Shown: positions 7,819 to 63,472 of the stretch, in pieces
Position numbering within the stretch: the stretch's first letter is position 1
Layout: every line of letters starts with the position of its first letter
Source of the DNA: Nocardia vaccinii NBRC 15922
GTDB lineage: Bacteria; Actinomycetota; Actinomycetes; Mycobacteriales; Mycobacteriaceae
NCBI RefSeq assembly: GCF_001613305.1
Contig: NZ_BDCC01000007.1
Location: 367,323-431,322 of the forward strand
Direction of reading: 5' to 3'
DNA: 64,000 nt
Notes under the pieces: generated by a model
The model's input: only the letters and a program-made list of their open reading frames with translations
What the model was told of the DNA's origin: nothing
Database searches by the model: none
Translations under genes and position numbers: made by a program

Positions 7819-7839
7819 TCCCGTGTCTCCACACACGAG

Positions 7840-7913
<74 letters not shown>

Positions 7914-37684: not shown

Positions 37685-37685
37685 C

Positions 37686-42500: not shown

Positions 42501-42583
42501 CCCGAATCGACCTCGACACCAGCACCGGTCCCCTCGACACCGAGTGGGACGACGCACGGTTCACAGAACAGGAGACACAGTAA
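39557..42583 (+). CDS. VirB4-like conjugation ATPase fused to PrgI-like domain
   Basis: A 1008-residue protein starting at ATG 39557 behind AGGAGG in an ATGA overlap. The first ~100 residues are PrgI-like, with two transmembrane helices (LALLSATGLILLLIWAATRA, ITVFAALAAPIAAVATAIVL). The rest is a VirB4/TraE ATPase: Walker A ILGRSGSGKSYLAKTSI near residue 635, Walker B RSVVVDEAWLLMRQRSG, and the QSIDQVGDAFNLSDGERRFLL C-terminal block. It energises assembly of the type IV channel. PrgI-VirB4 fusions are known in Gram-positive elements (SCO6880-type). Confidence 0.9.
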   Translation: MNSYRIPSDVERPDRIWGPLTARQLALLSATGLILLLIWAATRALIPITVFAALAAPIAAVATAIVLTTRDGLSGDQLLVAGLRHHRQTRHLIAVRPGDDTQPQAVPRWVTDRARGQRPPTAHPITPGTAALPQTVTPGTGAGGGVGVVDLGQEGIAVIAAATTINLALRTPAEQAGLVSALAGYLQSLSGNGVQILLQSVRLDVTGHITDLHTAAQTMPTELAEYALDHSRYLAELAQDDTTGQRQVLLVWREPLDPATRLATSVVGGLTARGRRERRISVQARHAAESRLLARLSDATELLAPLGVGVRALDDAQARAILTSCTNPANLVPFGAADAAGPTEIITTEASGYTGLQFETVGTDDEQDDLDDGGFGHRSRRGRVLRRGGGGVEFAPESLTIGARHLQVGSDYCATIAVTGYPREVTPGWLTPLAAFGGRVDIALHIEPIDPHLAAQRLRRQLARLESTLTSAAMHNRVGDPAVEVAAEDAAALSAQLARGESRLFRAGLYLTVHATSEDELAGQVTALRTLAASLLIDTCPLTYRAVEGWTATLPLGLDPVRGHRTFDSHALAAAVPFASAQLPPADPVSVTPAGVLYGRDGAAGLLFHDRFAPEMHNHNEVILGRSGSGKSYLAKTSILRSLYRGIETIVIDPEDEYAALCDALGGTHIRLGAPGVCLNPFDLDIHVGPSGHRTAAADALLRRKLHLHTVIAVLLGEQTPAQRAALDTAVTATYAAAGITDDPVTWVRPAPTLSMLRDQLAATGGPVAADLAAGLAPYVGGGAFAGLLDGASTHIPGGALIVYSLRELPEELKTIGTLLALDATWRRVTDPATRRARSVVVDEAWLLMRQRSGADFLYRLAKSARKHFLGLTVTTQDAADVLATDLGKAIVANSATQILLRQAPQSIDQVGDAFNLSDGERRFLLAADRGQGLLAIGAHQRTVFGTVASLAEHQIATTSPEYDLPDTDEDAGYLDLDAEDTRIDLDTSTGPLDTEWDDARFTEQETQ

Positions 42584-45144: not shown

Positions 45145-45251
45145 AACCCACAGCAGCACACCAGTTTCCGACCGACACACCCGAGGTCGGTCCATGCCCG
45201 TTCTGCCTTGTCCGGCGTGTGCAGCGCCGTTGATTGGAGGTGTCTTGTTCC

Positions 45252-46274
45252 ATGACCCCCGCTCCCCGATCCCTCACACCCCCTGCCCACACCCCCACCC
45301 AGGAAGGCGCGCGCACGGCGGGGCCGGTGCTGGCTGGGCGAGCCCGGCTCGCTGGCATTCTGACCGCGCGGGATCGGTGGCTGCTGTGGATGCTGTACGA
45401 GCACCGCGTCCTGACCACCAGCCAGATCAGCGCCCTGGCCTTCACCGCGACCCGCCGCGCCACCCGCCGCCTCCTGCGATTGCACGAGGCCGGGGTGATC
45501 GACCGGTTCCGGCCCCGCCGCACCGTGGGCACCGCGCCCTGGCATTGGATCCTGGCCCCCGCCGGTGCTGCGGTCCTGGCCGGTGAACACGGCCTGGACC
45601 TACGCGAGCTGCGGTGGCGGTACGACCGCGCTCTCGCGTTGGCGCACAGCCTGCACCTCGAGCACGACGTCGGTGTCGCCGACTGGTTCACCGCCCTGGC
45701 CACCAGCCCCGGGCCCAGCATGCTGAACCTCTGGTGGTCCCAGACTCGATGCGCGCGACTGTGGGGAGACCTGGCTCGCCCGGACGGCTACGGCCGCCTC
45801 GACCCCACCACCTCCGGGGCGGGTGGGCTGGAGTTCTTCCTCGAATTCGACTGCGGCACAGAATCTCTCACCCAGCTCGCCAAGAAACTCCACGGGTACG
45901 CGAACCTCGCCGCCGCGACCGGGATCACCACCCCGCTGCTGATCTGGCTCCCCACACCGCATCGCGAGGCCACCGCACGCACCGCACTCGCGGCCACCGC
46001 CACCGGACTCGAACACCCCGACACGGTCCCGATCGCGACCGCCGCCGGTGATCCCACTGCCGAGGCGGGCCCGGCCGGGGCGGTATGGCTGCCACTGCAC
46101 CCAGGGCCCGCCCGCCTCGCCCGGATCTCGTTGACACGCCTGGCCGCTGCCTGGCCGCGCCTGCCTCTCGATCCGGCTCCGGCCAACACCAACGAGAAGA
46201 GCACTGTGGCCCTGGACCGGCGCGTGGTGATCCCGCCGCCTCCACCGCGCCCACCCTGGCACGAGGGCCTGTGA
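45252..46274 (+). CDS. Replication-relaxation family protein
   Basis: A 340-residue protein of the Replic_Relax (PF13814) type. It begins (ATG 45252; GGAGG upstream) with a disordered stretch, then a winged helix (DRWLLWMLYEHRVLTTSQISAL, RRLLRLHEAGVIDRF) and a nuclease-like core with LEHDVGVADWFTALA and GGLEFFLEFDCGTESLTQLAKKLHGYANL. The family is frequent on mobile elements of actinobacteria and is associated with plasmid DNA processing; the acidic E-x-D-x-GTE and Lys pattern looks like a PD-(D/E)xK fold. It is a candidate for DNA processing in the absence of a visible relaxase. Confidence 0.78.
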   Translation: MTPAPRSLTPPAHTPTQEGARTAGPVLAGRARLAGILTARDRWLLWMLYEHRVLTTSQISALAFTATRRATRRLLRLHEAGVIDRFRPRRTVGTAPWHWILAPAGAAVLAGEHGLDLRELRWRYDRALALAHSLHLEHDVGVADWFTALATSPGPSMLNLWWSQTRCARLWGDLARPDGYGRLDPTTSGAGGLEFFLEFDCGTESLTQLAKKLHGYANLAAATGITTPLLIWLPTPHREATARTALAATATGLEHPDTVPIATAAGDPTAEAGPAGAVWLPLHPGPARLARISLTRLAAAWPRLPLDPAPANTNEKSTVALDRRVVIPPPPPRPPWHEGL

Positions 46275-47296
46275 TGTTCGGGCTCGCACTCGGGGCCGGA
46301 GCCACCGCCCTGTTCACCGCCGTGACGATCGGCGCGTTCACCGTCACCGTCGTCGCGGTCGACTCCGCTCGATCCCACACGAGCATCACCGCTCCCAGCC
46401 CAGCCGCCGGGCAATCGGCCCCGAGTCCCGACGCGGTCACCGACATCCCCGCGGACAAGCTCGCCCTCTACCGGCAGGCCGCCTCGGACTGCCCCGGCCT
46501 GGACTGGACGATCCTGGCCGGCATCGGCAAAGTCGAGACCGACCACGGCCGCAGCCGCCTCCCCGGAGTCTCCGAGGGCCAGAACAGCGCGGGCGCCGCA
46601 GGACCCATGCAGTTCCTGGCCTCCACCTTCACCGAGGTCACCGCACGCCACCAGCTCCCCGCGGGCGGGGCGAGCCCACCCTCGCGATACAACCCGAGCG
46701 ATGCCATCCACGCCGCCGCGTACTACCTGTGCGACTCCGGCGCTCCGGCCGACCTGCACCGCGCGATCTACAGCTACAACCACGCCGACTGGTACGTCCA
46801 GCAAGTCCTCGACCACGCCGCCCGCTACCGCAGCACCACACCCGAGCCCGGCACCGGGGACTGCCAGCACCTCACCACCTCGAACCCCACGGCCGCTAGG
46901 GTCCTGAGGTTCGCCTGCTCCCAGTTGGGGCAACCGTATGTGTGGGGAGGCAACGGGCCCCGAGCCTCCGGCGGCTGGGACTGCTCGGGCCTGACCAAGG
47001 CTGCCTATGCCGCCGCCGGAATCGCGCTCCCGCGCACCGCCTCCGACCAATACCACGCCACCACCCCCATCCCGATCAGCCAGATCCAGCCTGGCGACCT
47101 CGTCTTCTACAGCAATCAGAAAGACGGAATACACCACGTTGCCCTCTACCTCGGCAACAATACAATGATCGACGCACCCGACTTCGGACAATCGGTGAAA
47201 ATAGAAGACTACCGGCATCCGAATGACGACTTTCTGTCCGTCAACCACGTATTCACTCGCGGTCGAGGAACCTCGAATGTGCTTGGTGAGTCGTGA
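46274..47296 (+). CDS. Bifunctional wall hydrolase: lytic transglycosylase + NlpC/P60
   Basis: A 340-residue exported or membrane-anchored enzyme that opens the peptidoglycan for the transfer channel (VirB1-like). An N-terminal helix (LALGAGATALFTAVTIGAF) precedes an SLT-like domain whose catalytic Glu is in AGIGKVETDHGRS, with GAAGPMQFLASTF. The NlpC/P60 endopeptidase follows, with Cys in GGWDCSGLTKAAY and His in GIHHVALYLGNN. It starts in a TGATG overlap with the previous gene and is the last gene of the transfer operon. Confidence 0.92.
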   Translation: MFGLALGAGATALFTAVTIGAFTVTVVAVDSARSHTSITAPSPAAGQSAPSPDAVTDIPADKLALYRQAASDCPGLDWTILAGIGKVETDHGRSRLPGVSEGQNSAGAAGPMQFLASTFTEVTARHQLPAGGASPPSRYNPSDAIHAAAYYLCDSGAPADLHRAIYSYNHADWYVQQVLDHAARYRSTTPEPGTGDCQHLTTSNPTAARVLRFACSQLGQPYVWGGNGPRASGGWDCSGLTKAAYAAAGIALPRTASDQYHATTPIPISQIQPGDLVFYSNQKDGIHHVALYLGNNTMIDAPDFGQSVKIEDYRHPNDDFLSVNHVFTRGRGTSNVLGES

Positions 47297-50965: not shown

Positions 50966-52432
50966 ATGATCGGTACACCCATCCGCACCACACGTCACCC
51001 TGCACGCTCGCACCCCGCGCTGCGGCGGTGGTGGCTCGGTGCCGCGCTCTGCTCGGCGACCGTGCTCACCGCGGCCGTGGTCCCCGCCCTCGCCGTGGCC
51101 GCACCAACGGAAACCTGCGCGAAGGTCACCACGGTGACGGTGCCCGGGACCTGGGAACAGGCCCCCACCGGCACCTCGCCTACCGAAACCGCACCGCAGA
51201 CCATGCTGGCCCCGGTCACTCGTGACCTGCAGGCCCGCTACGGCAACGACCTCGCCTCGCAGACCGTGGACTACTCCGCCTCGATCACCCCGACCTACGC
51301 CGCCTCGGAATCCGATGGCACACAAGCCCTCTCGACCGCGCTGTCACAGCTGTGCCCCACCACGACAGTGGTCCTGCTCGGATATTCGCAAGGCGCGCAG
51401 GTCGCCGGGGACCTCGCGGCCCGGACCGGGCACGGCCAAGGCCCCATCCCGGCCTCGCGGGTCCTGGCGGTCGGGCTCGTCGCGGACCCCCACCGCGCCT
51501 CCACCACACCGCAACTCGGCCACCATGCCGCCGGCGGGGAAGGCGTCGAGGGCCCTCGCGCCCAAGACTTCGGCCAGCTGACCGACCGAGTTCGCACCCT
51601 CTGCGCCCAAGGCGACCTGTACTGCTCGGCCTCCCCACAGACCGACCCGCTCCTCACCACGATCGGGCGTGCCTTCACCAGCACGCCGGACCCCACATCG
51701 GGCCCCGAGGCCACGACCCAGACCGGCCCGACCTCGCAGTCCAGCGACACCGGCAGTGCTCTGGCGGGGCTCGATGCGTCCACACTCACCCAGCAGGTGC
51801 TCAACGTGCTGGCGGGAATGACCTCGCTCGCGGCGAACCTGCCCGCGATCGGCGGCGACCTCGTAGCGCTGCCGCAACGCCTGGCCGCCCTGGACGTCCC
51901 GGGCACCCACCAGCTCGCCGGGGACCTCAACAACCAGTTCCGCCCGCTGGTCACCATGGCCTCCCAGGTCGACCTGCACCTCATCGCGCGCATACTGACC
52001 ATCGTTGCTCCGGCCGATACCAGCGGAATCACCAGCGCGGCAGCACAAATCGTCGACATCCTCGCCGGAGTCGACATCAACCGAGTCGCCACCGACCTCG
52101 GCACCGCCCAGGAAACCGCCTGGGCGGCAGTGCAGAAACTCACCACCGGAGATGTCCTGGGTGCCGGGGCCGTCTTGACCGGCCTGCTGCCTGTGGCCGC
52201 TGACCTCGCGCAGGTCGCGGCGAACGCGCTCACCGGCAGCACCGCCGCGCCCCTGGCCGCACTCACCCCCACCAGCACCGGCGCGAGCGCGAACAGTGGG
52301 CTCGCCGACCTGGCCCGGCAAGGAATCGACGCGGCGAACTTCTTCTCTTCCGGTGTCCACCAGAACGGGTACGCCTCGGGCCTACAGAACCTCACCAACT
52401 GGCTGACCGGCCGAATCAACCACGCCCACTGA
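50966..52432 (+). CDS. Secreted cutinase-like serine esterase
   Basis: A 488-residue exported alpha/beta-hydrolase starting at ATG 50966 behind AGGAGG. It has a Sec signal (WLGAALCSATVLTAAVVPALAVAAP). The cutinase nucleophile elbow is VVLLGYSQGAQVAGDLA. Cys residues are placed as in cutinases (ETCAKV, SQLCPTT, LCAQGDLYCS; the Asp of GDLYC is the likely acid) and His in GVHQNGYASG is the likely base. The ~220-residue insertion between Asp and His, Ala/Leu-rich helices, is unusual. Cutinase-like enzymes of mycobacteria cleave lipid esters, and one hydrolyses trehalose dimycolate. Confidence 0.82.
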   Translation: MIGTPIRTTRHPARSHPALRRWWLGAALCSATVLTAAVVPALAVAAPTETCAKVTTVTVPGTWEQAPTGTSPTETAPQTMLAPVTRDLQARYGNDLASQTVDYSASITPTYAASESDGTQALSTALSQLCPTTTVVLLGYSQGAQVAGDLAARTGHGQGPIPASRVLAVGLVADPHRASTTPQLGHHAAGGEGVEGPRAQDFGQLTDRVRTLCAQGDLYCSASPQTDPLLTTIGRAFTSTPDPTSGPEATTQTGPTSQSSDTGSALAGLDASTLTQQVLNVLAGMTSLAANLPAIGGDLVALPQRLAALDVPGTHQLAGDLNNQFRPLVTMASQVDLHLIARILTIVAPADTSGITSAAAQIVDILAGVDINRVATDLGTAQETAWAAVQKLTTGDVLGAGAVLTGLLPVAADLAQVAANALTGSTAAPLAALTPTSTGASANSGLADLARQGIDAANFFSSGVHQNGYASGLQNLTNWLTGRINHAH

Positions 52433-52687
52433 TCGAGGTCACCTCCGAGCGGCCGACACGGATTTCCAGGGCCGCGTCCGCCCGTCGCGACGATCGCGCC
52501 GCACTCGGCCGGGCAGTGCTCGCAGCCGCCCGATCGCCCCGCACAGCCCGTCCACCGACATCGGCACCGGCCGGAGCGGTGCCACCCACGGTATGACGTG
52601 CGCGGCGGGGTGCCCGGGTGCCGGTGCCGGGGGTGTGGCGGCCAGCGCCGGTGCTGCCCCGAGGTCATCAGCACCGACGACCCGATT
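52433..52687. other. Intergenic stretch, no gene recognised
   Basis: About 255 bp after the cutinase gene. Open frames are compositional artefacts of high GC. The terminator and the convergent zinc-ribbon gene follow. Confidence 0.4.
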
Positions 52688-52727
52688 GGGCCCGGGGTGA
52701 TCCGCGCTGGCGGATCACCCCGGGCCC
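52688..52727. terminator. Bidirectional terminator, perfect 18-bp stem
   Basis: An 18-bp perfect stem (GGGCCCGGGGTGATCCGC and complement) with a GCTG loop. It lies between the rightward cutinase gene and the leftward zinc-ribbon gene. Confidence 0.85.
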
Positions 52728-52751
52728 GTTCTATCTCGGCGTCAGGGTTTG

Positions 52752-52928
52752 CTACGTCGGGGCGTCGGGCCGGTTCGGTCTCTCGACGCGCGGGCAGGCA
52801 GGCGTATCGCTGGGGGTTTCGGCGCACTCATCACACACGCCGATGACCGGCTGTAGCATCACGGCGCGGCCGGAAGCGTTGACCCGCTTGACTTTACGGC
52901 ACCTCTCGCACCATCCATGAAGTTTCAT
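52752..52928 (-). CDS. 58-residue zinc-ribbon protein
   Basis: A small ORF with AAAGGAACAAGGTC before ATG 52928. The protein reads MKLHGWCERCRKVKRVNAS, a variable linker with VMLQPVIG, then VCDECAETPSD and a Pro/Arg tail. Two C-x2-C knuckles about 22 residues apart make a zinc ribbon of the kind found in small RNA- or DNA-binding proteins. It is the last gene of a leftward group (53847, 53166, 52752). Confidence 0.7.
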   Translation of the reverse strand: MKLHGWCERCRKVKRVNASGRAVMLQPVIGVCDECAETPSDTPACPRVERPNRPDAPT

Positions 52929-53165
52929 GACCTTGTTCCTTTCCGGGGTGTTGGTTTAGCTGTTGCGTGCTGATTCACCGCCCCGGCGTGTCGATGGCCG
53001 CCGGGGTGTCCGGAATTGGTTGGCACCGTGGGGAATTTGCCCAAGGCAGGTCGGCGGGGTGGCGGCGGTGGCACGGCGTCGGCGCGGTCGTGGCGGTGGT
53101 TCGGGACCGCGCCCGGGCGGTGCGCGCGACGTGCGGCGGCACTGCCCGGGCCGGGGCTGGGTGGG

Positions 53166-53747
53166 CTATGTCGCCGCGTATTCGAAGGCGTCGGCGATCG
53201 CGGCGGCGGCGCGGGTGTTGGCGTAGATCACCGGCGGTGTCAGGCCACCACCGGCCGGTCCGGTGCGGGAGTCGTCGATATACGCGGTGCCGGGCCGCCC
53301 GGTGTCGTTGTCGACGGGCACGCGGACGCAGTAGTAGCTCGATTCCAGTACGACGGTGATCGCGAACCCGTCCTCGAGCCCGTCCCACGCTGAGCGCGGG
53401 GCCGCCCCCGCCAGCGCGAACAACTGCCAGGCGAGGTGCCGCACGTGTGCGATATCGGCACGGGTGAAGGTGCGCTCCCACCGCGCGAGCTTCATCGGTT
53501 CATCGGTCAACGGGTCGTGGAGGTGATCGGCCCAGCTCTCGCACGTGGGGCACGTGTGCCGGACGCCCTCGGGCCGGTCTGCCAGTTCGAGCCGGGTGTC
53601 CAGTACGGTGTCCGCGCGCAAGGCGCGGGACAGGTCCCCGGCGGCGACGGCCTCGGCGCGCACGGCCAGCACGTCGGCGCTGCTGAGCTGATCCAACGCG
53701 ACGGCGGGGAGGTTGTTGTCGTGGTGGTCGTGGGGGTGGTCGGTCAT
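53166..53747 (-). CDS. Hypothetical protein with TCxxC-SWADH motif, second paralogue
   Basis: A 193-residue protein from ATG 53747, preceded by GAGGAATTCC. After a His/Asp-rich N-terminus (DHPHDHHDNN) it has the same helical segment (DLSRALRADTVLDTRLEL) and C-x2-C signature (HTCPTCESWADHLHDP) as the gene at 49405. A beta-rich core follows (FAITVVLESSYYCVRVPVDNDTG). C-terminal RAAAAIADAFEYA matches the RASAAIVTAYHHARY helix of the paralogue. Function unknown. Confidence 0.65.
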   Translation of the reverse strand: MTDHPHDHHDNNLPAVALDQLSSADVLAVRAEAVAAGDLSRALRADTVLDTRLELADRPEGVRHTCPTCESWADHLHDPLTDEPMKLARWERTFTRADIAHVRHLAWQLFALAGAAPRSAWDGLEDGFAITVVLESSYYCVRVPVDNDTGRPGTAYIDDSRTGPAGGGLTPPVIYANTRAAAAIADAFEYAAT

Positions 53748-53800
53748 GTCGGAATTCCTCGATTCGTGTGTGCCGGTGCTGGTTTCGGTGTCCTGTTCGG

Positions 53801-53840
53801 GCACCGGCCGGGGCCACGGGTTCGCGGCCCCGGCCGGTGC
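53801..53840 (-). terminator. Terminator hairpin, perfect 15-bp stem
   Basis: GCACCGGCCGGGGCC and its exact complement flank a 10-nt loop, six bases after the stop codon of the gene at 53847. Confidence 0.8.
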
Positions 53841-53846
53841 GGGGAA

Positions 53847-55214
53847 TCAGGCGGCGGCGCGGGTTTGCACGGTCGCGGGTGCGGTGCGGGTGCGATGGGT
53901 CCGCGCGGGCGTGCCGGTCGGCGCGGTGTTCGCCGGGGCCGGTGCGGCGGTCTTCGCCTTGCCCTTGGCCGTACCCTGTTTGGCCGCAGCGGGTTTCATG
54001 GCCTTGCGGGCGGGTTCGGCGGTGTCGGCGGTCTTGGCCCGCGTGGTCTTGGCGGGGGTGGCGGTGGCCGGTTCGTGCGCGGTGGCGGTCTTGCGGGCCG
54101 CGCGGCGCGTGGTGGAGGCGGGTGATTGATCGGCCGGGGCGTCGGTCACCGGGGCCGGGGCGATGGTGTCGTTGGCCTTGCCCTTGGCCGTACGCTGTTT
54201 GGCCGCAGCCGGTTTCGTGGCCTTGGCGGGCGTGCTGGGCTTGGCGGCAGCCGGTTTCGTGGCCTTGCGGGGCTTGGCCGGGGCCGCCTCCGGGGCCGGG
54301 GTCGCGGTGTCGGCGGGCGCGGTGTTCTTGCGGGCCCGTGGCTTACGGGCGGGGGCGGTGGCCGCCTCCGGGGTACCGGCCCCGGTGTCGTCGGCAGGCA
54401 CGGTCGCGGCGGTCGAAGCGCGTTTCGCCGCAGCGGGTTTGGTGCTCTTGCGGGGCTTGGCCGGAGCGGTGGCGGGGGCCGGTGCGGACGCGCTGTCGGC
54501 GGTCTTGCCCGTTTCGGCCGGGGCCACGGTGGCGACCGCCTCCGGGGTGGCGACCGGCTCCGGGGTGGCGGCAGGTTCGGGCGTGGTGTGCGCGGCCGGG
54601 GCGTCGGTATCCGGGGCAGTGTCGGCGGGCGCGGGCGGGCGCGCGGTGCGGGGTGCCGGGGCGGGGGTGGCCCGTTCCGCCGTGATCGCGCGGCGGGCGG
54701 GCACCGGGCGGGGATTGGGCCGGGGCGGTGTGGTGCGGCGGGCCAGGGTGGTGATGGTGTGGCGGCCCAGCGCGGCGGCCACACCGACCACAGCCACCAC
54801 CAACACCACAGCGGCGCGGCCGAATGCGACGGCGGCCCGGCCCAGGGTGAGGCTCGCGGCGGCCGGGGTCATGGCGGCCGGTGTCGGTGTCGCGGCGGGA
54901 CGGGTGCGGCGGGCGGCGCGGGCCGGGGCCACGGACACCCGGGCCGGGATTGCGGACGCGGCGGCGGTCGCGGTGGTGCGGGTGGCGCGGTAGCGGCGCG
55001 GGGTGGTTTGGGTTTGTTCGGCGTGCCCGGCCTCGGTCAGCCGGGCCAGGGCGTTGCCGATCGCCCCGGCCGACCGGCCCAGGATGACCGCGATCTGGCG
55101 GGGCCCGTATTCGGTGCGGGGGTTGTCGGCCAGGATGTGTGCCACCATGGCGCGCAATTCGCCGTTACCCAGACGGGCGGGCGCGGTGGCCGTTGCGGGG
55201 CTGTGTTCGGTCAT
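53847..55214 (-). CDS. Winged-helix protein with histone-H1-like basic tail
   Basis: A 455-residue protein from ATG 55214 behind AGGAG. The N-terminal ~80 residues are a winged helix (LRAMVAHILADNPRTEYGPRQIA, SAGAIGNALARLTEAGHAE). A hydrophobic segment near residues 145-165 (FGRAAVVLVVAVVGVAAALG) may cross the membrane. The remaining ~280 residues are Ala/Lys/Pro/Thr-rich with repeats of the type KPRKATKPAAAK, TKPAAAKQRTAKGKAND and ARKAMKPAAAKQGTAKGKAK. The tail resembles eukaryotic H1 and mycobacterial HU/HupB C-termini. Likely a DNA-compacting protein; a membrane tether is possible. Confidence 0.65.
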   Translation of the reverse strand: MTEHSPATATAPARLGNGELRAMVAHILADNPRTEYGPRQIAVILGRSAGAIGNALARLTEAGHAEQTQTTPRRYRATRTTATAAASAIPARVSVAPARAARRTRPAATPTPAAMTPAAASLTLGRAAVAFGRAAVVLVVAVVGVAAALGRHTITTLARRTTPPRPNPRPVPARRAITAERATPAPAPRTARPPAPADTAPDTDAPAAHTTPEPAATPEPVATPEAVATVAPAETGKTADSASAPAPATAPAKPRKSTKPAAAKRASTAATVPADDTGAGTPEAATAPARKPRARKNTAPADTATPAPEAAPAKPRKATKPAAAKPSTPAKATKPAAAKQRTAKGKANDTIAPAPVTDAPADQSPASTTRRAARKTATAHEPATATPAKTTRAKTADTAEPARKAMKPAAAKQGTAKGKAKTAAPAPANTAPTGTPARTHRTRTAPATVQTRAAA

Positions 55215-55506
55215 TTCGGTAACTCCTGTCGGAATGTGATTGCGCCGCATATCGAGCGGATCGCCGTATTCGGCGCGGGGTGTCCCGGGGGGTGAAATGT
55301 GTCATTCTCACCCGGGCGGTACCGGTCGAAAGTAACTCGCCACATCACACGAATTCAACCCGAACACCGAAAAATGCCAGAAAACGCGGCCAGAACACCG
55401 ACCTCGCGCGATTATCGAGCACGGCAAGGAAAGCGAATTAGTTATTTCCAGGGATTGAACCCCGCCCGGCCGGCGGGTCGCAATACGGTCGCGAAAAGCG
55501 TGCTCG

Positions 55507-55528
55507 CCGCTCGCTTCGAAGCGAGCGG
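55507..55528. repeat. Perfect 22-bp palindrome
   Basis: CCGCTCGCTTC followed immediately by its complement GAAGCGAGCGG, with no spacer. A dimeric protein could bind it. Confidence 0.7.
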
Positions 55529-55701
55529 AGCGGGACGCTACCCGGACCGGTCGATCGTCGCCCGGCCCGGCCCGTCGGGCCACCCCGCGCCGCCCCCGAC
55601 GTGTTAACCCTGTTGTATTCCATACAGCCTGGGCATGAAGTCAGCCCGCAACATGCGGTTGACCTGCGAGTATTTGCCGTGTGGGGTGGGCCGTTCTTAA
55701 C

Positions 55702-55749
55702 CGGCCCCCGCATCGGCCCCCCTAACGGCCCCCGCATCGGCCCCCGTAT
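55702..55749 (+). repeat. Four tandem 12-bp repeats
   Basis: Units GGCCCCCGCATC, GGCCCCCCTAAC, GGCCCCCGCATC and GGCCCCCGTATC lie head to tail, followed by a partial fifth (GGCACCGCC). Iteron-like arrangement close to one helical turn. Confidence 0.7.
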
Positions 55750-55973
55750 CGGCACCGCCAGAACCAGACAGACCTCCCCAGGAGAGGATGAGCCCGACCA
55801 CGAGGCCGGCCGGGGACCTCACGCGCCTCGGATCCGCCTTTCCGACCGAGTCCCGGCTATATCCCAGGCATTTCCGGACGCATCAAATATTTGCCGTTCT
55901 CCGATTACTGCACACTCACAATATTCCCCATTATCGGTGGACGCCGAATATTCGTGTTCGAGCCGGTTTTCTG

Positions 55974-58025
55974 TCAGCTCGGGCCGGGGTTGGTGTTGTT
56001 CTTGCCGGGGTTCTGGTTGCGGAGCAGGGTGGCGATGTCGAGGGTGTGTTGTGTGGGGATGTCGCCGATGGATTCGAGGCATTGTTTGAGTAGCGCGAGG
56101 GTGGGGTTGATGACGGTGTGTTCACCGAGGCGCGCGTGCAGACGCAGAATGTCTTGGTATATCGGTTCGTTGGTCGGGTCGAGCAGCAAGGCGGTTTCCA
56201 GCAGGGCGAGGGTTTGGTCGGGGTCGGTCTCGACCAGCATCGCGGCGAGTTTCCCGAGGGCTTTGAGGCGGTCGCGGCGGGCTTGTTCACGGATCGGGGC
56301 GATCCAGTCCGCGCCGAGTTCCTCGGCCAGCACCCCCTCGGCCGCGCCCAGGATCGCTCGGCAGGCCCGTTCGCGATCCACGGCGTCGGTCGCGGCGCGC
56401 AACGCGGCCACCGCCGCATCGAACCTCACGTAATCCACATCCCAAACGCCAGGGGCGAGGCGAAAACGGACAGTGCCGGCGGCGATGAACTCGACATCAG
56501 GCTCGTCCACGGCAGTGGTGAGCGCTTTGCGCAGCCGAGACATCAGAGTGTTGAGGGTGTTGGTCGGGCGGCGCGAGCGATGCTCGGGCCACAGCGCGGC
56601 GATCACCGCCTCGCGGGTGACCCCGCCCGGACGCACCGCGAGCAGGATCAGCAGTTCACGCTCCCGGGGCCGCAACGCGTGAGTGATCTCGACCGGCGCC
56701 GCCCCACCGGCGGAGAGCCACAGCACGCGCAACGGCCCGAACACCTGCACCGACAACACCGGCCCCGGTGCGCATGGAGCCGGTGTGGGCGGCATCGCCG
56801 CAGGTGGTTCGGGTGCGCCCGGTGTCGGGGTTGTGGCGGCAGGTTCGCGAGCGTGACTGGTCGTGCCCGGACCGGTCGCGGTCTCCTCGGTGCGTGAGGG
56901 CGGCGAGTCCGATTCGGGTGCAGCGGTGGGTGCGGTGGTGGTGTCGGGCTCGGCTGGGCCCGCCGGGGTGCGCGATGCGGTGGAGTGTTGCGCATGGGGT
57001 GCGGCAGTGGCGGTCTGCGCGCGGTGGCCGCCCTCGGCGTGCACGGGGTCAGGATCGTCCTGGGGCATCGGGTCGAGTGTCGGGCCCGGGATGCTCCGGG
57101 CGGCGGGGTCGAGTCCTGGGTGTGAGCGGACCGGGAGATCGATCCGGTAGACCGTGGGCCCCGACGCCCGGTGAGCGGGAATTCGGTTACGAGGCGGTGT
57201 CTGGGCGCGTTCATGCCGGGTATCGGTGTCGGTGGCCACGGGTGGGGATGGGCGCAGGTCGGTGTGGATGACGGTGGTGGCGGTGCGCGCGGCGCGCAGC
57301 AGCCGGTTGCGGCGGGGCCAGCGCGGGGTGCGCAGCAGTGCCGACGCCGAGTGGGGGTCCTCGGGCAGGCATGTGAGCACCGGCAGCGCGAGAGCGGCCC
57401 GAAAGGCGCCGTCGGGGTCGGCGCCGATGAGCACGATGCCGCGGTGGCCGCGATGGTCGGCAAGTTCGAGGATCCGCCGCCGTGCATGCGCTGGGTCGTC
57501 CCGGTCGGTGTGCACGACGATCAGGCGGGCGTCCGCGCCCCGCAGGATCGCCGCTGTCACTGATCTCGCCTCGGGTGCCCCGCAATCGGCGAAGACCGTG
57601 AGATCGCTGTTCCTCCACTCCGGCAGGTTCGCCGCGCGCTGTTCCCGTTCGGTCCGGGCCAGCAGGGCCGCAGTCCACACCCCGCGAGGACCCGCGTCCG
57701 GGCCGGGCGGTGAGGCCAGGAACCCCACACCGCCGGGCAGGCGCTGCAGGTGCTCGGTCAACTCCAGGCTGGTCGCCTGTGCGCCGGTCTGCGCGGTGCG
57801 GGCCAGGCTCGCCAGGCCCCGGTACGGGTCGGCTCCGACCGCGTCGGCCAGCTGCCCGCCGGCCGAGTCCGCCTCCACGATGACAGCCCGGTCGGGTCCG
57901 GGCCAGGCACGGGCGACCGCGACCGTCGTGGTGGTGACACCCGATCCCGGTCCCACACCCGCCACCGAGATCAGCAGACCACGGCCACCCGTGCGGGCGG
58001 AAGGCACTGCGCGCGTGGACATCAC
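55974..58025 (-). CDS. ParA/MinD-like ATPase fused to SARP-type BTAD domain
   Basis: A 683-residue two-part protein. Residues 1-230 are ParA-like: VAGVGPGSGVTTTTVAVARAW replaces the classical KGGxGKTT (no Walker Lys), with VIVEADSAGGQLADAVG and LTVFADCGAP. A disordered Pro/Thr/Glu-rich linker of ~170 residues follows. The C-terminal ~270 residues hold an OmpR-like winged helix (LRPRERELLILLAVRPGGVTR, TNTLNTLMSRLRKAL) and a BTAD tetratricopeptide domain. Lys-less variants with GVTTT are known among actinobacterial ParA-like proteins, so activity is unclear. Start at 58025 or the next ATG 58022. Last gene of a leftward operon. Confidence 0.75.
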   Translation of the reverse strand: MMSTRAVPSARTGGRGLLISVAGVGPGSGVTTTTVAVARAWPGPDRAVIVEADSAGGQLADAVGADPYRGLASLARTAQTGAQATSLELTEHLQRLPGGVGFLASPPGPDAGPRGVWTAALLARTEREQRAANLPEWRNSDLTVFADCGAPEARSVTAAILRGADARLIVVHTDRDDPAHARRRILELADHRGHRGIVLIGADPDGAFRAALALPVLTCLPEDPHSASALLRTPRWPRRNRLLRAARTATTVIHTDLRPSPPVATDTDTRHERAQTPPRNRIPAHRASGPTVYRIDLPVRSHPGLDPAARSIPGPTLDPMPQDDPDPVHAEGGHRAQTATAAPHAQHSTASRTPAGPAEPDTTTAPTAAPESDSPPSRTEETATGPGTTSHAREPAATTPTPGAPEPPAAMPPTPAPCAPGPVLSVQVFGPLRVLWLSAGGAAPVEITHALRPRERELLILLAVRPGGVTREAVIAALWPEHRSRRPTNTLNTLMSRLRKALTTAVDEPDVEFIAAGTVRFRLAPGVWDVDYVRFDAAVAALRAATDAVDRERACRAILGAAEGVLAEELGADWIAPIREQARRDRLKALGKLAAMLVETDPDQTLALLETALLLDPTNEPIYQDILRLHARLGEHTVINPTLALLKQCLESIGDIPTQHTLDIATLLRNQNPGKNNTNPGPS

Positions 58026-58098
58026 ACCGACACGGGAAGATTCGGGCCGGATGCGGGGGCTGTCGGGCTCTCCAGTGCGCAGGTGGCGGGCTTCGGGG

Positions 58099-58812
58099 TC
58101 ATCCTTGCTCCTGGACGTGGCTGATCAACAGGCCACCGCCGGGATTGGGTGCGGGGATGGTGTTGATGACTTGCAGGTAGTCGACCCGGTGCTGGTCTGG
58201 GTGTAGCTCGACCAGGTGCACTGTCGCGGTGTTCGCGGTGACTGGGGTGATCGCGACGCAGTGCGTGGTACCCGGTGGGATGGAGGCGATCCCGGCGGCG
58301 AGTCCCTGCTCGGTGATCCCGGCTTCGGGGGCCACGACCCGTAATGCGTCGGGCGCGGATCGCGCACTGTAGTAGGCGGCCTCGAACGTGGCGATCACTC
58401 CTTCCAGGGTGGCCGGGTTCCCCGCGCTGGTGGTGACCACGGCCCCGGACAAGCCAGCGCACACCCCGCTCGCGGGTGTCGTGGTCCCCGCCCGCAGCAC
58501 CGTCGCAGGGCTGGTGCGCGGGCCGGGCTGGTGGGTGGTGTGCGTCGCAGCGAGCACGCCGATGGTCACCGCGGCCAGGGCCACCAGGGCTGCCCAGCCG
58601 CGCAGCCGAAGCCCGCGTCCGCCGCCGCGCCGCGCGTGAGGGGAATGAGGTTGCTCGCGCTCGGGTGGTGGCTGGTACCAGCCGTCCTCGGCCGGTGACT
58701 GCGGTGCCGGGTCGGCGTCCAGGTCGAGCTCGGGAACACTGTCCTGGTCCGGTCCTGGTGGGGTACGCGGTGATCCCCACTCCCGGGATGGGTCGTTCTC
58801 GTTGCGGGGCAA
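58099..58812 (-). CDS. Membrane protein with NTF2-like outer domain
   Basis: A 237-residue protein starting at TTG 58812 with GGAGG eight bases before it. An acidic Pro-rich cytosolic N-terminus (~65 residues) and a basic patch precede one transmembrane helix (AALVALAAVTIGVLAATHTT). The outer domain of ~130 residues (ATFEAAYYSARSAPDALRVVAPEAG, TTHCVAITPVTANTATVHLVEL) has the look of an NTF2-like fold, as in VirB8/TcpC transfer proteins or uncharacterised nocardial lipoproteins. One Cys pair may form a disulphide. It could be the VirB8-like part of the transfer machine, but this is only a fold guess. Confidence 0.6.
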   Translation of the reverse strand: MPRNENDPSREWGSPRTPPGPDQDSVPELDLDADPAPQSPAEDGWYQPPPEREQPHSPHARRGGGRGLRLRGWAALVALAAVTIGVLAATHTTHQPGPRTSPATVLRAGTTTPASGVCAGLSGAVVTTSAGNPATLEGVIATFEAAYYSARSAPDALRVVAPEAGITEQGLAAGIASIPPGTTHCVAITPVTANTATVHLVELHPDQHRVDYLQVINTIPAPNPGGGLLISHVQEQG

Positions 58813-58897
58813 CCTGTTTCACCTCCGGAGCAATGGCAGGTATCGACCGGTCGGGCCCGCCCGCAGACCACGGGCGGGCAAGGACCCGGTGCGAGCC

Positions 58898-60076
58898 TCA
58901 CGCGCGGGCAGCACGTCCAGAACCCGGGCTGGGAAGGTCGCGATCGTGGTGGACCGGCCGGGGCCGGGAGAGGTCTTCGTCGAGGTGGGTGATCGATTCG
59001 GTGATCGCGTCGACGGCGGTGCCGGTGTGCCCGGTCGGGTACTCGCGCCAGGACACCTGGGCCCCGCTCTGGCGGTAGGCGATCATCGTGCGCCGTCCCG
59101 CGCCGACGGGGACGACCTCGTCGCGGGTGCCGTGGTAGAGGTGCAGCGGCATGGTGGGCCGGGCGTGGGCGAGGGTTTCCATCCCCAGCACATCACGCCA
59201 GCGCGGTTCGTTCCACGGATCCGTGCGATGACACCAGTGCGACAACGGTTCGCGATACCAGTCCATCAAATGCTCGGCGGTCAGAGTGGCGGCTTGGGCG
59301 GCGAGATGCTGGCCCTGTTCGTTGAGCACGTACTCCAAACGCAGGTCCGGGTAGGCGCGTGAGAGCCCGATTACCGCGGCCAGGGCGAGTACCGCGTACG
59401 CGCCCGTGCTGACCGTGGGCGCGATCGCGGCCAGGTCCGACACGACTGCCCCTGCGCACAGGCCCCGCAGGTCCAGCTCGGGGGCGTATCGGGCGTGCAG
59501 TTCGCCTGCTGCGGCGACTGCCCGGCCGCCGTCGGCGTATCCCCAGGCCACGACCGGGATCGGGGTGTCCCGAATTCCGGTGTCCGGGTCTGCGGTGTCC
59601 AGGTCCGGGACGTATTGTGCGGCGCGGGCCATATCCAGGACGATCTGCCCGCCCGCTCGTGCGGCCAGGAAGGTGTGCGGGCCCACACCGGTCACGCCCA
59701 GGCCCGCCCCGTCGGGCACCGCGACCACCCATCCTCGCGCCAAACCGGCGGCGAGGACCGCGACGTCGGGGTGTTCGGGGTTCGCGCCGATCACCAGCGA
59801 CCGCGACGGCGCACACGGGCCGCCCAGCCCGCGAAACGACGGGTAATACACCAGCATCGGCCCCGAGACGAGGCTGGTGTCGTTGCTGGTGTCGGGGATG
59901 ATGACGATGCCCGAGGCGGGGATCAGGTCGCCGCGGGAGTTGGTGGACACGTACAGGATCTGCCAGGCCGCTCCCGCGCCGGGGAGCTGGGGCACGAACG
60001 CGGGGCGCATCCGCAGGACATCACCGGGCAACCGGCTCGGTTGGAGGGTCGGTGGGGTGTAGAAGTCGTCGGTCAT
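58898..60076 (-). CDS. Secretory-lipase-family protein lacking the nucleophile (copy 1)
   Basis: A 392-residue alpha/beta-hydrolase of the LIP (PF03583) type from ATG 60076 behind GGAGG. Typical features are DFYTPP, PGDVLRMRP, PSFRGLGGPCAPSRSL and DGAGLGVTGVGPHTFL. At the nucleophile elbow the family's GYSQGG reads WGYADGGRAVA, with Ala instead of Ser. The Asp (YHGTRDEVVPV) and His (YPTGHTGTAV) of the triad are kept. No signal peptide is present, unlike typical secreted members. It is paralogous to the gene at 60223. Confidence 0.8.
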   Translation of the reverse strand: MTDDFYTPPTLQPSRLPGDVLRMRPAFVPQLPGAGAAWQILYVSTNSRGDLIPASGIVIIPDTSNDTSLVSGPMLVYYPSFRGLGGPCAPSRSLVIGANPEHPDVAVLAAGLARGWVVAVPDGAGLGVTGVGPHTFLAARAGGQIVLDMARAAQYVPDLDTADPDTGIRDTPIPVVAWGYADGGRAVAAAGELHARYAPELDLRGLCAGAVVSDLAAIAPTVSTGAYAVLALAAVIGLSRAYPDLRLEYVLNEQGQHLAAQAATLTAEHLMDWYREPLSHWCHRTDPWNEPRWRDVLGMETLAHARPTMPLHLYHGTRDEVVPVGAGRRTMIAYRQSGAQVSWREYPTGHTGTAVDAITESITHLDEDLSRPRPVHHDRDLPSPGSGRAARA

Positions 60077-60145
60077 GACAATGCCTCCGCAAGGGTCATC
60101 GGATTGTTGTGTGGCACAGAGCCTTTTTGGTCGGCGTGCAGGGCG

Positions 60146-60184
60146 CCTGTCCTGCCCGGTGGAGGGGGCACCGGGCAGGACAGG
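60146..60184 (-). terminator. Hairpin between the two lipase-like genes
   Basis: CCTGTCCTGCCCGGTG and its exact complement form a 16-bp stem around a 7-nt loop. It falls between two genes of the same direction and may end or attenuate the upstream transcript. Confidence 0.75.
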
Positions 60185-60222
60185 GCCTTCTCGGGCTGGT
60201 CCAGAAACGCGCGGCGATCACC

Positions 60223-61335
60223 TCAGCGAGGGCCGACGGCCGGGGTGTTGAGGTGGTCGGTGAGCCGGGCTAGGACGTCCTCTATGGCCTCGGTGCGGGT
60301 ACTGAAGTGATCGCCGGTGTATTCGCTCCAGCTCACCCGCACACCGCGGGCGCGGTAGTCGTCCACGAGTTCGCGGCCCGCCTCGACCGGGACGATCGCA
60401 TCGGTTCGCCCGTGGTAGAGGTGCACCGGCACCACCGGGGACACCACGGCGCTGGTGCGTTCCTGCCCGAACACGTACCGCCACATCGGGTCGTCCCACA
60501 CGGGCCGGTCGCACCAGGTCTGCAGCCGGTGCCCGAACCGCAGGCACAGCTCCTGCGCGCTCAGCTCCCCGGCGTGCTCGACCAGTGGGCGAGCCTCGTC
60601 GAAGAACACGTGACGCAGGGGAAGATTGCGGTGCGCGTGGGAAAGGCCGATGACGCCGGCGAGCGCGAGCATCGGCCAGGGGCTCTGATCCACCAGGGGC
60701 AGGATCGCGCCCGGGTCGGTGACCACCGCCCCGGCGGCCACGCCCCGCACATCCAGCTCCGGCGCGTATCCCGGCTGCAGATCGCCCGCCCATTGCGCGG
60801 CCCGGCCGCCGTCGGCGTATCCCCACAGCACCAGCGCGGACTGCTGCGCGTGTAGCGCTGGGATCCGGGCCACCGCGCGGCCCAAATCGAGCATCACCTG
60901 CCCTGCCACGCGACCGGCCAGGAAGGTGTGCGGCCCAACGCCGTGCACGCCGAGCCCTTCGCCATCGGTGACCGCGACGTGCCACCCGCGCGCCAGCACA
61001 GCGCCGATCTGGTCGATATCGGGTTCGTTGCCCGCTGCGAGCCGCTGTGATGGGGCGGTGCTGGGGCCGCCGAGCCCGTGGAAACTCGGCGCGTACACCA
61101 CCACCGGAGCATCGGGGTCGTCGCCGACAGCGGAGCTGATCACGGTCCCGGACACCACGATCAGCTCGCCGTAGGTGTCCCGCGAGCAGTACAACAACCG
61201 CCATGCCGGACCCGCACAGGGCAGACCAGGCGTCGGAGTCGGGAGCAACCGCAGGACGTCCCCGGGCCGATGATGATCTTCCAGGACCGGTGGGGTGTAG
61301 AAGTCGATGTCGGTCAACGAGGGTGTGCCGGTCAC
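60223..61335 (-). CDS. Secretory-lipase-family protein lacking the nucleophile (copy 2)
   Basis: A 370-residue paralogue of the previous gene, starting at GTG 61335 in a GTGA overlap with the cutinase stop. It shares DFYTPPVL, RPGDVLRLLP, PSFHGLGGPSTAPSQRL and GEGLGVHGVGPHTFLAGR. The elbow again reads LWGYADGGRAAQW, with Ala in place of the catalytic Ser. Asp (YHGRTDAIVPV) and His (YTGDHFSTRTEAI) persist. A longer frame to 61857 is an overlap artefact. Without Ser it may bind lipid or a partner enzyme rather than hydrolyse. Confidence 0.8.
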   Translation of the reverse strand: MTGTPSLTDIDFYTPPVLEDHHRPGDVLRLLPTPTPGLPCAGPAWRLLYCSRDTYGELIVVSGTVISSAVGDDPDAPVVVYAPSFHGLGGPSTAPSQRLAAGNEPDIDQIGAVLARGWHVAVTDGEGLGVHGVGPHTFLAGRVAGQVMLDLGRAVARIPALHAQQSALVLWGYADGGRAAQWAGDLQPGYAPELDVRGVAAGAVVTDPGAILPLVDQSPWPMLALAGVIGLSHAHRNLPLRHVFFDEARPLVEHAGELSAQELCLRFGHRLQTWCDRPVWDDPMWRYVFGQERTSAVVSPVVPVHLYHGRTDAIVPVEAGRELVDDYRARGVRVSWSEYTGDHFSTRTEAIEDVLARLTDHLNTPAVGPR

Positions 61336-62603
61336 TGGTGACCCCCTTGAGCGAGGTCGTGGGCCAGCGCGACCAGCCAGGCGATCCCGGAGGCGAGCTG
61401 GCCGGTGGTCGCGTACCCGTCGTGCGCGGTCACCGTGGCCGCGAAACTCGCCCACACGGCCGGGTTCGTCAGGTCGGCGTTGTCGGCGACCAACTGCCCC
61501 CACGCCCCAGCGAGTTGGCTGGCCAGCTTCGGCAGCTCGCCCGGGTGCGCGGTGAGGGTGGCGGTGATCTGGTTCCAGCGCTGGCTCGCCGCGCCGACCT
61601 GCTCGGGGGTCGGGGCGGGGATGCGGGGATCGGCGGCGTCGATCAACCGTTTCGACAGCGCGGCCCGGGGATGGTAGTCCACGGTGGCCGGGCCGACGTC
61701 GAAGTCGTTGAGCACGACCTTGTTCCACGCGGTACCCAACGCCCCCGACAGCACCCGCTGCAGACTCGCTACAGCGGCGATCGGGTTCGACAGGTCGGCT
61801 TGGGCGGCGATCTCGGCCCCGACCCGCAACAGCGCGGCATGGTCGGGGGCCGCGCACGCCAGGTCCCCGTCGACGCAGATGTCCGCGACCCGACCGGTCA
61901 ACGACCCGTAGCTGGCGTTGTCGGCGGCGATGCCGCTGCCCGGCGCGAGCGGTGCGGTGATCCGCACCGCCGAGACCGCACCACTGGCCGCGCCGGGTGC
62001 ACTATCGGGCACTAGCTGGCCGGGCCGTCCCGGAAACACTGGTGAGTTCGCCGGGCGTTCGGGATCCGCATACAGCGCCACCGCGGCGACCTTGTCCGCC
62101 GGGACCGGACCGTGTCCGGCACCGACCTCTCGCGCGAACTGTGAGACCGCCTGCGCGCCTTGGGAATACCCGATCGCCGCCAGCTCGGTAGCCGGGCAGC
62201 GAGCCACGACTCGTGCGGCGGCGGTGCGCAGTTCACCGATCGCATCGGTGACCGAGACGGTGTAGGACTCGCGCCCGCCACCCGCACCAGGGATACCGCC
62301 GAACCCGGCCGGATACGGAATATAAGTGCGCTGCACCAGATTCGGCACCGCCGCGACAACCGGGCCCAGCAGCGCACCGAGCACCCCGGTATCAGCGGTC
62401 GGGCTCGCGGACGGGGAGGACTGACCGGTGCCCTGGACCGCCAGGACCCACAACACCGGGCACCCCGGATCGGCCGACGGTGGTGAGGCCGCGGCCGGCC
62501 CGAACACCGTGAAGCCGCTGAGGGACAGACCAGCCAGCAGCGCGGCGGCACGACGGGCGCGGCGAGGACGGGTGCGCGACGAGGGTCTCGTTATAGGTGT
62601 CAT
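61332..62603 (-). CDS. Secreted cutinase-like serine esterase
   Basis: A 423-residue exported esterase. After an Arg-rich n-region the signal peptide is AAALLAGLSLSGFTVFGPAAASPP. The cutinase elbow is LAAIGYSQGAQAVSQFA, disulphide-type Cys occur at DPGCPVLW, VARCPATE, DICVDGDLAC, with the acid Asp in DGDLAC and His in VDYHPRAAL. It overlaps both neighbours by 4 bp (ATGA upstream, GTGA downstream), so it is co-translated with the ParB/Srx-type gene and the second lipase-like gene. A C-terminal helical tail of ~110 residues follows the catalytic domain. Confidence 0.85.
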   Translation of the reverse strand: MTPITRPSSRTRPRRARRAAALLAGLSLSGFTVFGPAAASPPSADPGCPVLWVLAVQGTGQSSPSASPTADTGVLGALLGPVVAAVPNLVQRTYIPYPAGFGGIPGAGGGRESYTVSVTDAIGELRTAAARVVARCPATELAAIGYSQGAQAVSQFAREVGAGHGPVPADKVAAVALYADPERPANSPVFPGRPGQLVPDSAPGAASGAVSAVRITAPLAPGSGIAADNASYGSLTGRVADICVDGDLACAAPDHAALLRVGAEIAAQADLSNPIAAVASLQRVLSGALGTAWNKVVLNDFDVGPATVDYHPRAALSKRLIDAADPRIPAPTPEQVGAASQRWNQITATLTAHPGELPKLASQLAGAWGQLVADNADLTNPAVWASFAATVTAHDGYATTGQLASGIAWLVALAHDLAQGGHQ

Positions 62604-63472
62604 ATCGGCTCCGGGAAGTTCGCGCGGGTCAGACCACCCTTGGGCAGCAGCAGCTTGGTCATCGGACGCCCGCGGCGAAACGCGTTCCAGGTGAGAATGA
62701 ACAGGGCCAGAAGCTCCCGCTCCGAGATGGTGATCTTGTTGGTTTTGATCCGATCGAGCCGTTCACGCAGCGCCAGGATCGGTGAATCCAGACCCAGGTC
62801 CGCCCCCGAAAGCACCCGGTCGAAGAAGTCCGCGCAGTCATCCGGGGCGATCTGGTGCAGCCGTACCGCGACCGCAGCGGTCACCGACGGGCGTGCCTTG
62901 ATCCGTGTGATCCCCCGGCTCACATACAGATTGATGATTTCCACGTGCTGCGGGTAGTGCTCGGCCCACTGCACCACTTTCGGTGCCGACAACGCCGAGA
63001 GGCGGTTGTGATCACCGAACAGGTTGCCCGCACCCCACTGCTCGAGCACCCTGATCGTGCTCGCGATCAACCGCGCGTTCGCCGTGCTGATACCGCGTAG
63101 CTCGAGCTGATCGGCAGGGGTGCGTTTCGCGCCCTGATCCATCGTGACTTGCGCATCCGGGGGCAGGCCGCGGATCACGAGCATCGGGAACTCGAGGCCG
63201 GTCCCGGCGGTGCGGGCGATCGCTTCGAGGCGGTGCTGCCCATCCAGCAGGTTCCCGTCGGTGTCGAACTTGATCGCCTCACCGTTGAGTTGCCAACGGC
63301 CCTCGATCATTTCGACGTGATAGGCGCGGACCTTCTTCTCCCGCACCGGACGGTTGTTGATGTTGCACCCCAGCCACTGCTGCGCGAGCACCGCATCCAC
63401 GGCAACCACGTCCGTAGTCAGTGCCGTGGCCGGATCGGGGGTTTCCTCGGAAAGTGTGCGAGCGGGTTCCAT
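62600..63472 (-). CDS. ParB/sulfiredoxin-like nuclease-fold protein
   Basis: A 290-residue protein. The N-terminal domain has VNINNRPVREKKVRAYHVEMIEGR-type text and the signature FDTDGNLLDGQHRLEAIARTAG, the DGQHR box of the ParB/Srx superfamily. The rest is helical (AVAVRLHQIAPDDCADFFDRV, ELLALFILTWNAFRRGRPM). Similar proteins are found in actinophages and mobile elements. Only 3 bp separate it from the upstream HTH gene. It may nick DNA, hydrolyse nucleotides, or serve partition. Confidence 0.7.
   Translation of the reverse strand: MEPARTLSEETPDPATALTTDVVAVDAVLAQQWLGCNINNRPVREKKVRAYHVEMIEGRWQLNGEAIKFDTDGNLLDGQHRLEAIARTAGTGLEFPMLVIRGLPPDAQVTMDQGAKRTPADQLELRGISTANARLIASTIRVLEQWGAGNLFGDHNRLSALSAPKVVQWAEHYPQHVEIINLYVSRGITRIKARPSVTAAVAVRLHQIAPDDCADFFDRVLSGADLGLDSPILALRERLDRIKTNKITISERELLALFILTWNAFRRGRPMTKLLLPKGGLTRANFPEPI

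Follow-up and report, generated by a model that had tools for sequence, protein, structure and literature searches.

To our knowledge, how conjugation machines pass through the mycolate outer membrane is poorly understood. For plasmids (pRErm46), PMC6794481 proposes that DNA translocation across the envelope is helped by a murein endopeptidase together with a secreted cutinase, and it cites the cutinase of plasmid pFiD188 as promoting conjugation. The likeness of pRErm46 to the present locus lies in this published proposal, and the plasmid is known here by its description in that source. The first-pass annotation of this DNA had called such a module undescribed. However, the central idea is already published for plasmids in PMC6794481. 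The integrative-element form, the block combining two cutinases with pseudo-lipases, the presence with distinct types of type IV secretion system (T4SS) and the mycolate-restricted linkage are new. In the open-access literature, with most subscription papers outside it, no report was found on cutinases of Nocardia integrative elements, and among the matches listed none was found on the cutinase-LIP-DUF8176 block or on DUF8176.

The window, which is the whole 64-kb stretch of DNA analysed, carries two cutinase genes, CUT1 and CUT2 (Table 1). The cutinase of pFiD188 (Rhodococcus fascians, NC_021080.1) is a homologue of CUT1 (E 5e-25, 28% identity). Like CUT1, it contains a cutinase domain in which the His motif (SHNSY near the C-terminus) lies far past the Asp motif. 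It adjoins T4SS and M23 genes, and CUT1 likewise lies beside a T4SS. In contrast to the window element, pFiD188 is a linear plasmid whose T4SS ATPase differs, and no lipase is annotated within 20 kb on either side of its cutinase. The cutinases of pNSL1 and pVAPN show 36–40% identity to CUT1 and are homologous over the N-domain and the C-terminal part. Plasmid cutinases of this type are about 660 aa long with an extra inserted stretch compared with CUT1, and the ATPase differs here as well.

The window covers the final 64 kb of contig C7 in a 9.2-Mb genome, and its end coincides with the contig end. The right border of the element lies beyond the contig end, so the element runs past the window. 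After the integrase-family gene come a DNA methylase gene and then the T4SS operon (37265–47296), with CUT1 3.7 kb downstream of the operon. The first-pass annotation had placed the two cutinase genes on the same element as a T4SS and a peptidoglycan-cutting transglycosylase/NlpC enzyme. Both cutinases are real coding sequences at the positions it named (PF01083 scores of 65.2 bits for CUT1 and 50.9 bits for CUT2 versus a cut-off of 25.9), and the T4SS is also real, lying outside the range which that annotation covered, with SLT and NLPC_P60 domains in its last gene. The Nocardia elements and three elements of Streptomycetaceae have this VirB6-like protein conserved. With a VirB4, a coupling protein and an integrase match just under the PF00589 cut-off, the element is predicted to be an integrative conjugative element. 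A protein 78% identical to the integrase-family protein occupies the same place in N. jiangxiensis, and the closest named relatives of both CUT1 and the T4SS are from Nocardia, which makes a Nocardia genome the probable source. On the opposite strand, from 63982 down to 55974, the order is orf63476, orf62600, CUT2, LIP1, LIP2, the DUF8176 protein and the P-loop/regulator protein, which we take from its motif to be MinD-like. The start of CUT2 shares 4 bases with the gene before it, and the GTG start of LIP1 shares 4 bases with the CUT2 stop, so the minus-strand block is probably a single operon.

Table 1. Positions of the element's features in the window
Feature	Coordinates	Strand	Family matches and remarks
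Integrase-family protein, 479 aa	31905..33344	-	left part of element; PF00589 24.7 bits, below cut-off 27.1
T4SS pilin	37265..37684	+	PF18895 53.1 bits
VirB6-like protein	37686..39560	+	named by position and hydrophobic stretches; no Pfam match
PrgI-VirB4 fusion ATPase	39557..42583	+	PF12666, PF19044; ATG at 39557
VirD4/TraG-like coupling protein	42583..45144	+	PF02534, PF12696
Replication-relaxation family protein (Replic_Relax)	45252..46274	+	PF13814 139.4 bits; ATG at 45252
Transglycosylase and NlpC/P60 peptidoglycan hydrolase (SLT-NlpC)	46274..47296	+	PF01464, PF00877; ATG at 46274; last gene of operon
CUT1, cutinase	50966..52432	+	PF01083; hydrophobic N-terminus; putative triad S141-D217-H465; inserted helical segment about 228–461
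P-loop-type protein with regulatory DNA-binding domain	55974..58025	-	PF00486 31.3 bits; conserved in block
DUF8176 protein	58099..58812	-	PF26527 (also homologues); one predicted transmembrane helix and NTF2-like fold (model and fold comparison)
LIP2, PF03583 predicted pseudo-lipase	58898..60076	-	GYADGG; without nucleophile Ser, without signal peptide
LIP1, PF03583 predicted pseudo-lipase	60223..61335	-	GYADGG; GTG start
CUT2, cutinase	61332..62603	-	PF01083; putative triad S147-D247-H394
ORF of presumed CUT2 operon	62600..63472	-	no family match

VirB4 of the window type was found in 3/201 genomes of the same family (the source genome, G133 and G174); from the GTDB scheme, we take this family to coincide with the mycolate-bearing group. 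It was also found on four named Nocardia contigs, giving a total of eight elements in seven genomes. A CUT1 relative is located within 20 kb of VirB4 in 8/8 of these elements, and within 2 kb of the SLT-NlpC gene in 4/8. Seven genomes chosen for carrying the window-type VirB4 gave 77 cutinase matches, of which 75 exceed the family cut-off, and 12 of the 77 are within 30 kb of VirB4 versus 0.65 expected by chance. A ninth locus with T4SS and CUT1, on contig C5 of N. cyriacigeorgica (L069), is outside the element counts. Besides the window, G174, N. jiangxiensis and N. cyriacigeorgica also have the CUT2-LIP-DUF8176 block. G203 and G204 show parts of it where their contigs end, and on the 43-kb contig of G133 it was not found. 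The further block copies of contig C74 and G203:C154 are probably parts of the elements on C75 and C27.

The tandem LIPs match PF03583 at 104.3 and 104.2 bits versus a cut-off of 23. In both of them the nucleophile Ser of the GxSxG motif is absent and replaced by Ala. Among 121 LIP rows, this position is Ala in 101, Gly in 17, Ser in 2 and Thr in 1, and both Ser rows are the most distant ones. The Asp and the His are each kept in 120/121 rows. On a crude hydrophobicity scale, LIP1 and LIP2 have no hydrophobic N-terminus that would serve as a signal peptide, and 4/121 rows pass the cut. Some LIP homologues carry the source name 'putative inactive lipase'. LIP1 and LIP2 are predicted from these features to be cytoplasmic, non-catalytic pseudo-lipases. 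The first-pass annotation had spoken of hydrolases, a term too simple for the block, as LIP1 and LIP2 have neither the catalytic Ser nor a signal peptide. A second cutinase (CUT2') is found in four related blocks with a T4SS of the SCO6880 type, and these proteins carry R, T, G or T in place of the nucleophile. Judged by motif, the blocks hold one active-looking cutinase beside inactive-looking partners, which argues against all block genes being lipid hydrolases. LIP1, LIP2 and the DUF8176 protein were absent from the first-pass annotation.

By alignment, the Ser-Asp-His triad appears to be kept in both CUT1 and CUT2. Both proteins are predicted to be secreted, and the N-terminal hydrophobic stretch scores 2.44 in CUT1 and more weakly, 1.75, in CUT2 on the same crude scale. 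The His follows the Asp by 248 residues in CUT1 and by 147 in CUT2, while the short chromosomal cutinases of the same genomes have the His about 16–22 residues past the start of the Asp motif. The first-pass annotation had pointed to a trehalose dimycolate hydrolase among the cutinase-like enzymes of mycobacteria. The closest solved relatives are instead Rv3802c (Culp6; 5w95) and MSMEG_6394 (3aja), by sequence for CUT1 and CUT2 and by fold for the CUT1 model, which matched the cutinase fold. The model aligns to Rv3802c over residues 50 to 488, apparently including the final helix. In the CUT1 AlphaFold2 (AF2) model, pLDDT is 84–98 in most core blocks, about 60 in loop 61–80, mostly 43–85 in the inserted helical part (262–461) and about 95 in the final helix (470–487). 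CUT1 differs from Rv3802c and MSMEG_6394 in its large helical insert before the putative catalytic His and in being borne on a mobile element. CUT1 (95.1 bits) and CUT2 (74.0 bits) both score below the 570-bit cut-off of the Culp6/Rv3802c equivalog NF050160 and fall outside that family. A further likeness, at 20% identity, is to mycobacteriophage D29 lysin B (3hc7), an enzyme that acts in lysis. According to the title of PMC2625445, Rv3802c (Culp6) is a phospholipase/thioesterase.

Across an alignment of CUT1 with its homologues (121 rows), Ser and His are jointly kept in 85 and jointly lost in 30, with 6 exceptions, and the joint losses are mostly in one clade. That the two residues are kept or lost together supports H465 as the catalytic His of CUT1, as far as an alignment can tell. 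Two of the eight CUT1 copies (G174 and G203) lack both Ser and His. These copies, together with the clade, suggest that CUT1 catalysis is not always needed. In contrast to the losses in CUT1, the full triad is present in 8/8 aligned CUT2-type copies. The few of the 77 ORF rows that came from an incorrect reading frame are outside the triad counts. In a tree of 73 core segments, built without 7/77 cutinase ORFs and the pVAPN protein, in which the motif was not located, CUT1 and three plasmid cutinases (from an N. farcinica plasmid, pNSL1 and pFiD188) group with the chromosomal 307-aa class. CUT2 is in a different part of the tree, so the two subfamilies were probably recruited separately.

The same T4SS was also searched for outside the mycolate family. 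A scan of the whole class detected VirB4 in 45/394 genomes, which are the source genome and 44 genomes outside its family, the latter presumed to lack mycolic acids. None of these 44 (0/44) has a cutinase on the VirB4 contig within 1 Mb of VirB4, and 12/44 have any cutinase at all. Many control contigs are short: of 29 loci, 14 have at least 20 kb on both flanks and 19 have it downstream, and no cutinase was found at the control loci with flanks of at least 20 kb either. Three replicons of Streptomycetaceae that share these T4SS genes (the PrgI-to-NlpC order is annotated in one, and the genes of the other two were seen by tblastn) have no cutinase and no LIP match within 20 kb on each side. 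Fisher's test of 7/7 versus 0/44 gives 9e-9, in which the Nocardia elements share ancestry and represent one lineage rather than seven trials.

Cutinases also accompany T4SSs of other types. Matches between the ATPases of the window element, the SCO6880 elements and pNSL1 are weak (best E 2e-4 to 0.03). The SCO6880-type T4SS was found in 42/148 genomes (3 mycolate and 39 other). A cutinase is located within 16 kb at 4/6 mycolate SCO6880 loci (C19 and C7 of the source genome, G022:C1 and G048:C16), and at the remaining 2/6 (C17 of the source genome and G022:C84) no cutinase was found on the contig. In contrast, 0/55 SCO6880 loci in the 39 other genomes have a nearby cutinase, and the nearest one on the same contig is more than 600 kb away. 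The enrichment on mycolate-host elements, by which the first-pass annotation wished its idea to be judged with Streptomyces elements as the comparison, was observed for both systems against genomes presumed to lack mycolates, with 8/8 elements versus 0/44 genomes for the window type and 4/6 versus 0/55 loci for SCO6880. Four Nocardia loci (C19 of the source genome, G201:C5, G202:C17 and G203:C13) have the order CUT2, LIP, CUT2', DUF8176, followed by the P-loop protein where called and then by NlpC and TraG-like genes. These four loci were found via their cutinases, and only C19 is in the 4/6 count. SCO6880 was identified at G202:C17 and G201:C5 by NCBIfam and at C19 by genome search.

Among plasmids, 254 records were matched by CUT1 and 223 by the pNSL1 cutinase. 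The genera named among them are presumably all mycolate bacteria except for one Cryobacterium record, which counts against a mycolate restriction; one genus in these tallies carries no name. The pNSL1 VirB4 matched 99 records, and 45/60 among the matches listed belong to Rhodococcus, Prescottella or Gordonia. A cutinase is present on at least 39 of these 45 mycolate plasmids, 31 within 45 kb and eight at 69–299 kb. Records of Streptomyces, Nocardiopsis, Nonomuraea and Pseudonocardia also have a pNSL1-type ATPase, and these genera are not named in the cutinase tallies. In the stretches examined, no relative of the tested T4SS genes accompanies the insert-type cutinases of G133:C33 (the CUT1-like one at G133:C33:75044), G000:C81 and G201:C33 (8.4 kb only for the last). 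These results support that cutinases are linked to conjugation modules of three T4SS types in mycolate bacteria, and that they are not found near window-type or SCO6880 T4SSs in the other Actinomycetes searched.

We lean, with modest confidence, towards the explanation that CUT1 and CUT2 hydrolyse lipid locally during mating and thereby let the T4SS span the mycolate outer membrane. The two enzymes, predicted to be secreted, would cut ester-linked lipids of this membrane at the mating site, and the element's own SLT-NlpC enzyme would open the peptidoglycan. The helical insert between Asp and His may be a lid or a tether to the transfer apparatus, and LIP1, LIP2 and the membrane-anchored NTF2-fold protein may have accessory roles. 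We infer in this way that the cutinases would be secreted, would act on mycolate esters, would remodel the mycomembrane locally and would take part in the transfer of this element, from the donor or the recipient side. Rv3802c-type enzymes also have substrates other than mycolates, which counts against the mycolate part of this explanation. The dead CUT1 copies, the two mycolate SCO6880 loci with no cutinase on their contig and the insert-type cutinases away from tested T4SS genes also speak against it.

The inactive copies could be read in another way. The dead CUT1 clade (30/121 rows without Ser and His), the substituted nucleophiles of the four CUT2' proteins and the LIPs without Ser in 119/121 rows would all fit cutinases that mainly bind lipid or bridge cells, for adhesion or mating-pair stabilisation, with catalysis secondary and the dead copies as the fully developed form. 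However, no aligned CUT2-type copy has lost a triad residue, and each of the two elements with a dead CUT1 also encodes a CUT2 whose triad is intact (in G203 on another contig, assumed to be of the same element), and we regard this reading as unlikely. It is also improbable in our judgement that the cutinases are host-helping cargo without a role in transfer, acting on plant cutin, on environmental or host lipids or in general envelope remodelling. Such cargo should not follow distinct T4SS types in mycolate hosts yet be missing beside the same T4SSs elsewhere, and the cutinase of pFiD188 is reported, in PMC6794481, to promote conjugation. The abundance of cutinases in these genomes (77 matches in seven) and the insert-type cutinases unlinked to tested T4SS genes are what cargo would lead one to expect. 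Secreted surface enzymes could in principle alter receptors, and the cutinases might then work on the host cell once the element has entered it, blocking further mating or phage adsorption. Nothing in the data points to such surface exclusion, and we give it very little weight.

Beyond local lipid hydrolysis by CUT1 and CUT2, a more speculative possibility, to which we give only tentative credence, is a dedicated module for crossing the mycomembrane. It would consist of an active insert-bearing cutinase, a dead cutinase paired with it or pseudo-lipases, and the NTF2-fold membrane protein, and would pass between different T4SS types of mycolic-acid bacteria. Such a module would be the functional counterpart of the outer-membrane core complex that is missing from these Gram-positive-type T4SSs, and the helical insert would dock the enzyme onto the machine. 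With a component that follows the envelope of the host and not the type of T4SS, the question of mycolate crossing becomes testable, and such a component could bear on the host range of plasmids spreading among Rhodococcus, Gordonia, Nocardia and mycobacteria.

The genome of Nocardia vaccinii contains another element (contig G000:C75, stretch L050) that has the same T4SS type as the window element and carries its own CUT1 cutinase on C75. The block of the cutinase CUT2, the pseudo-lipases LIP1 and LIP2 and the DUF8176 protein on the short contig G000:C74 (L102) is probably part of this element. The Ala/Pro/Lys-rich protein, which looks histone-like by eye only, is also found on C74 and in five other elements of the same type. 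The position of the DNA methylase gene varies among the elements: it is located on the integrase side in the window element, and in G000:C75, G174 and G203 it separates one half of the T4SS genes from the other. On a N. farcinica plasmid (L012), a DUF8176 relative lies immediately upstream of the plasmid cutinase.

Features of the window and of a related genome (G133)
Feature	Location	Strand	Remark
tRNA-Pro(cgg)	window 7839-7913	-	sole tRNA gene within window
DNA methylase	window 34178-35152	-	PF01555
Ala/Pro/Lys-rich long protein	window 53847-55250	-	N-terminal part conserved
DUF8176 protein	window 58099-58812		membrane-anchored, NTF2-like; accompanies cutinase block
Insert cutinase	G133:C33:75044-75562		CUT1/plasmid type

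Because the integrase is 24 kb away from it, the tRNA-Pro(cgg) gene is not obviously the attachment site of the element. Around the G133 insert cutinase, no relatives of the tested T4SS genes were found in the stretches read, and this cutinase is perhaps a remnant.

The LIP-family pseudo-lipases form a conserved lineage (window 58898-61335 and L085:8438-10027), in whose sequences the nucleophile Ser is replaced by Ala or Gly while Asp and His are retained. The SCO6880-type elements L083, L084, L085 and L092 carry CUT2, one LIP and a second cutinase, and the nucleophile position of this second cutinase is occupied by R, T, G or T.
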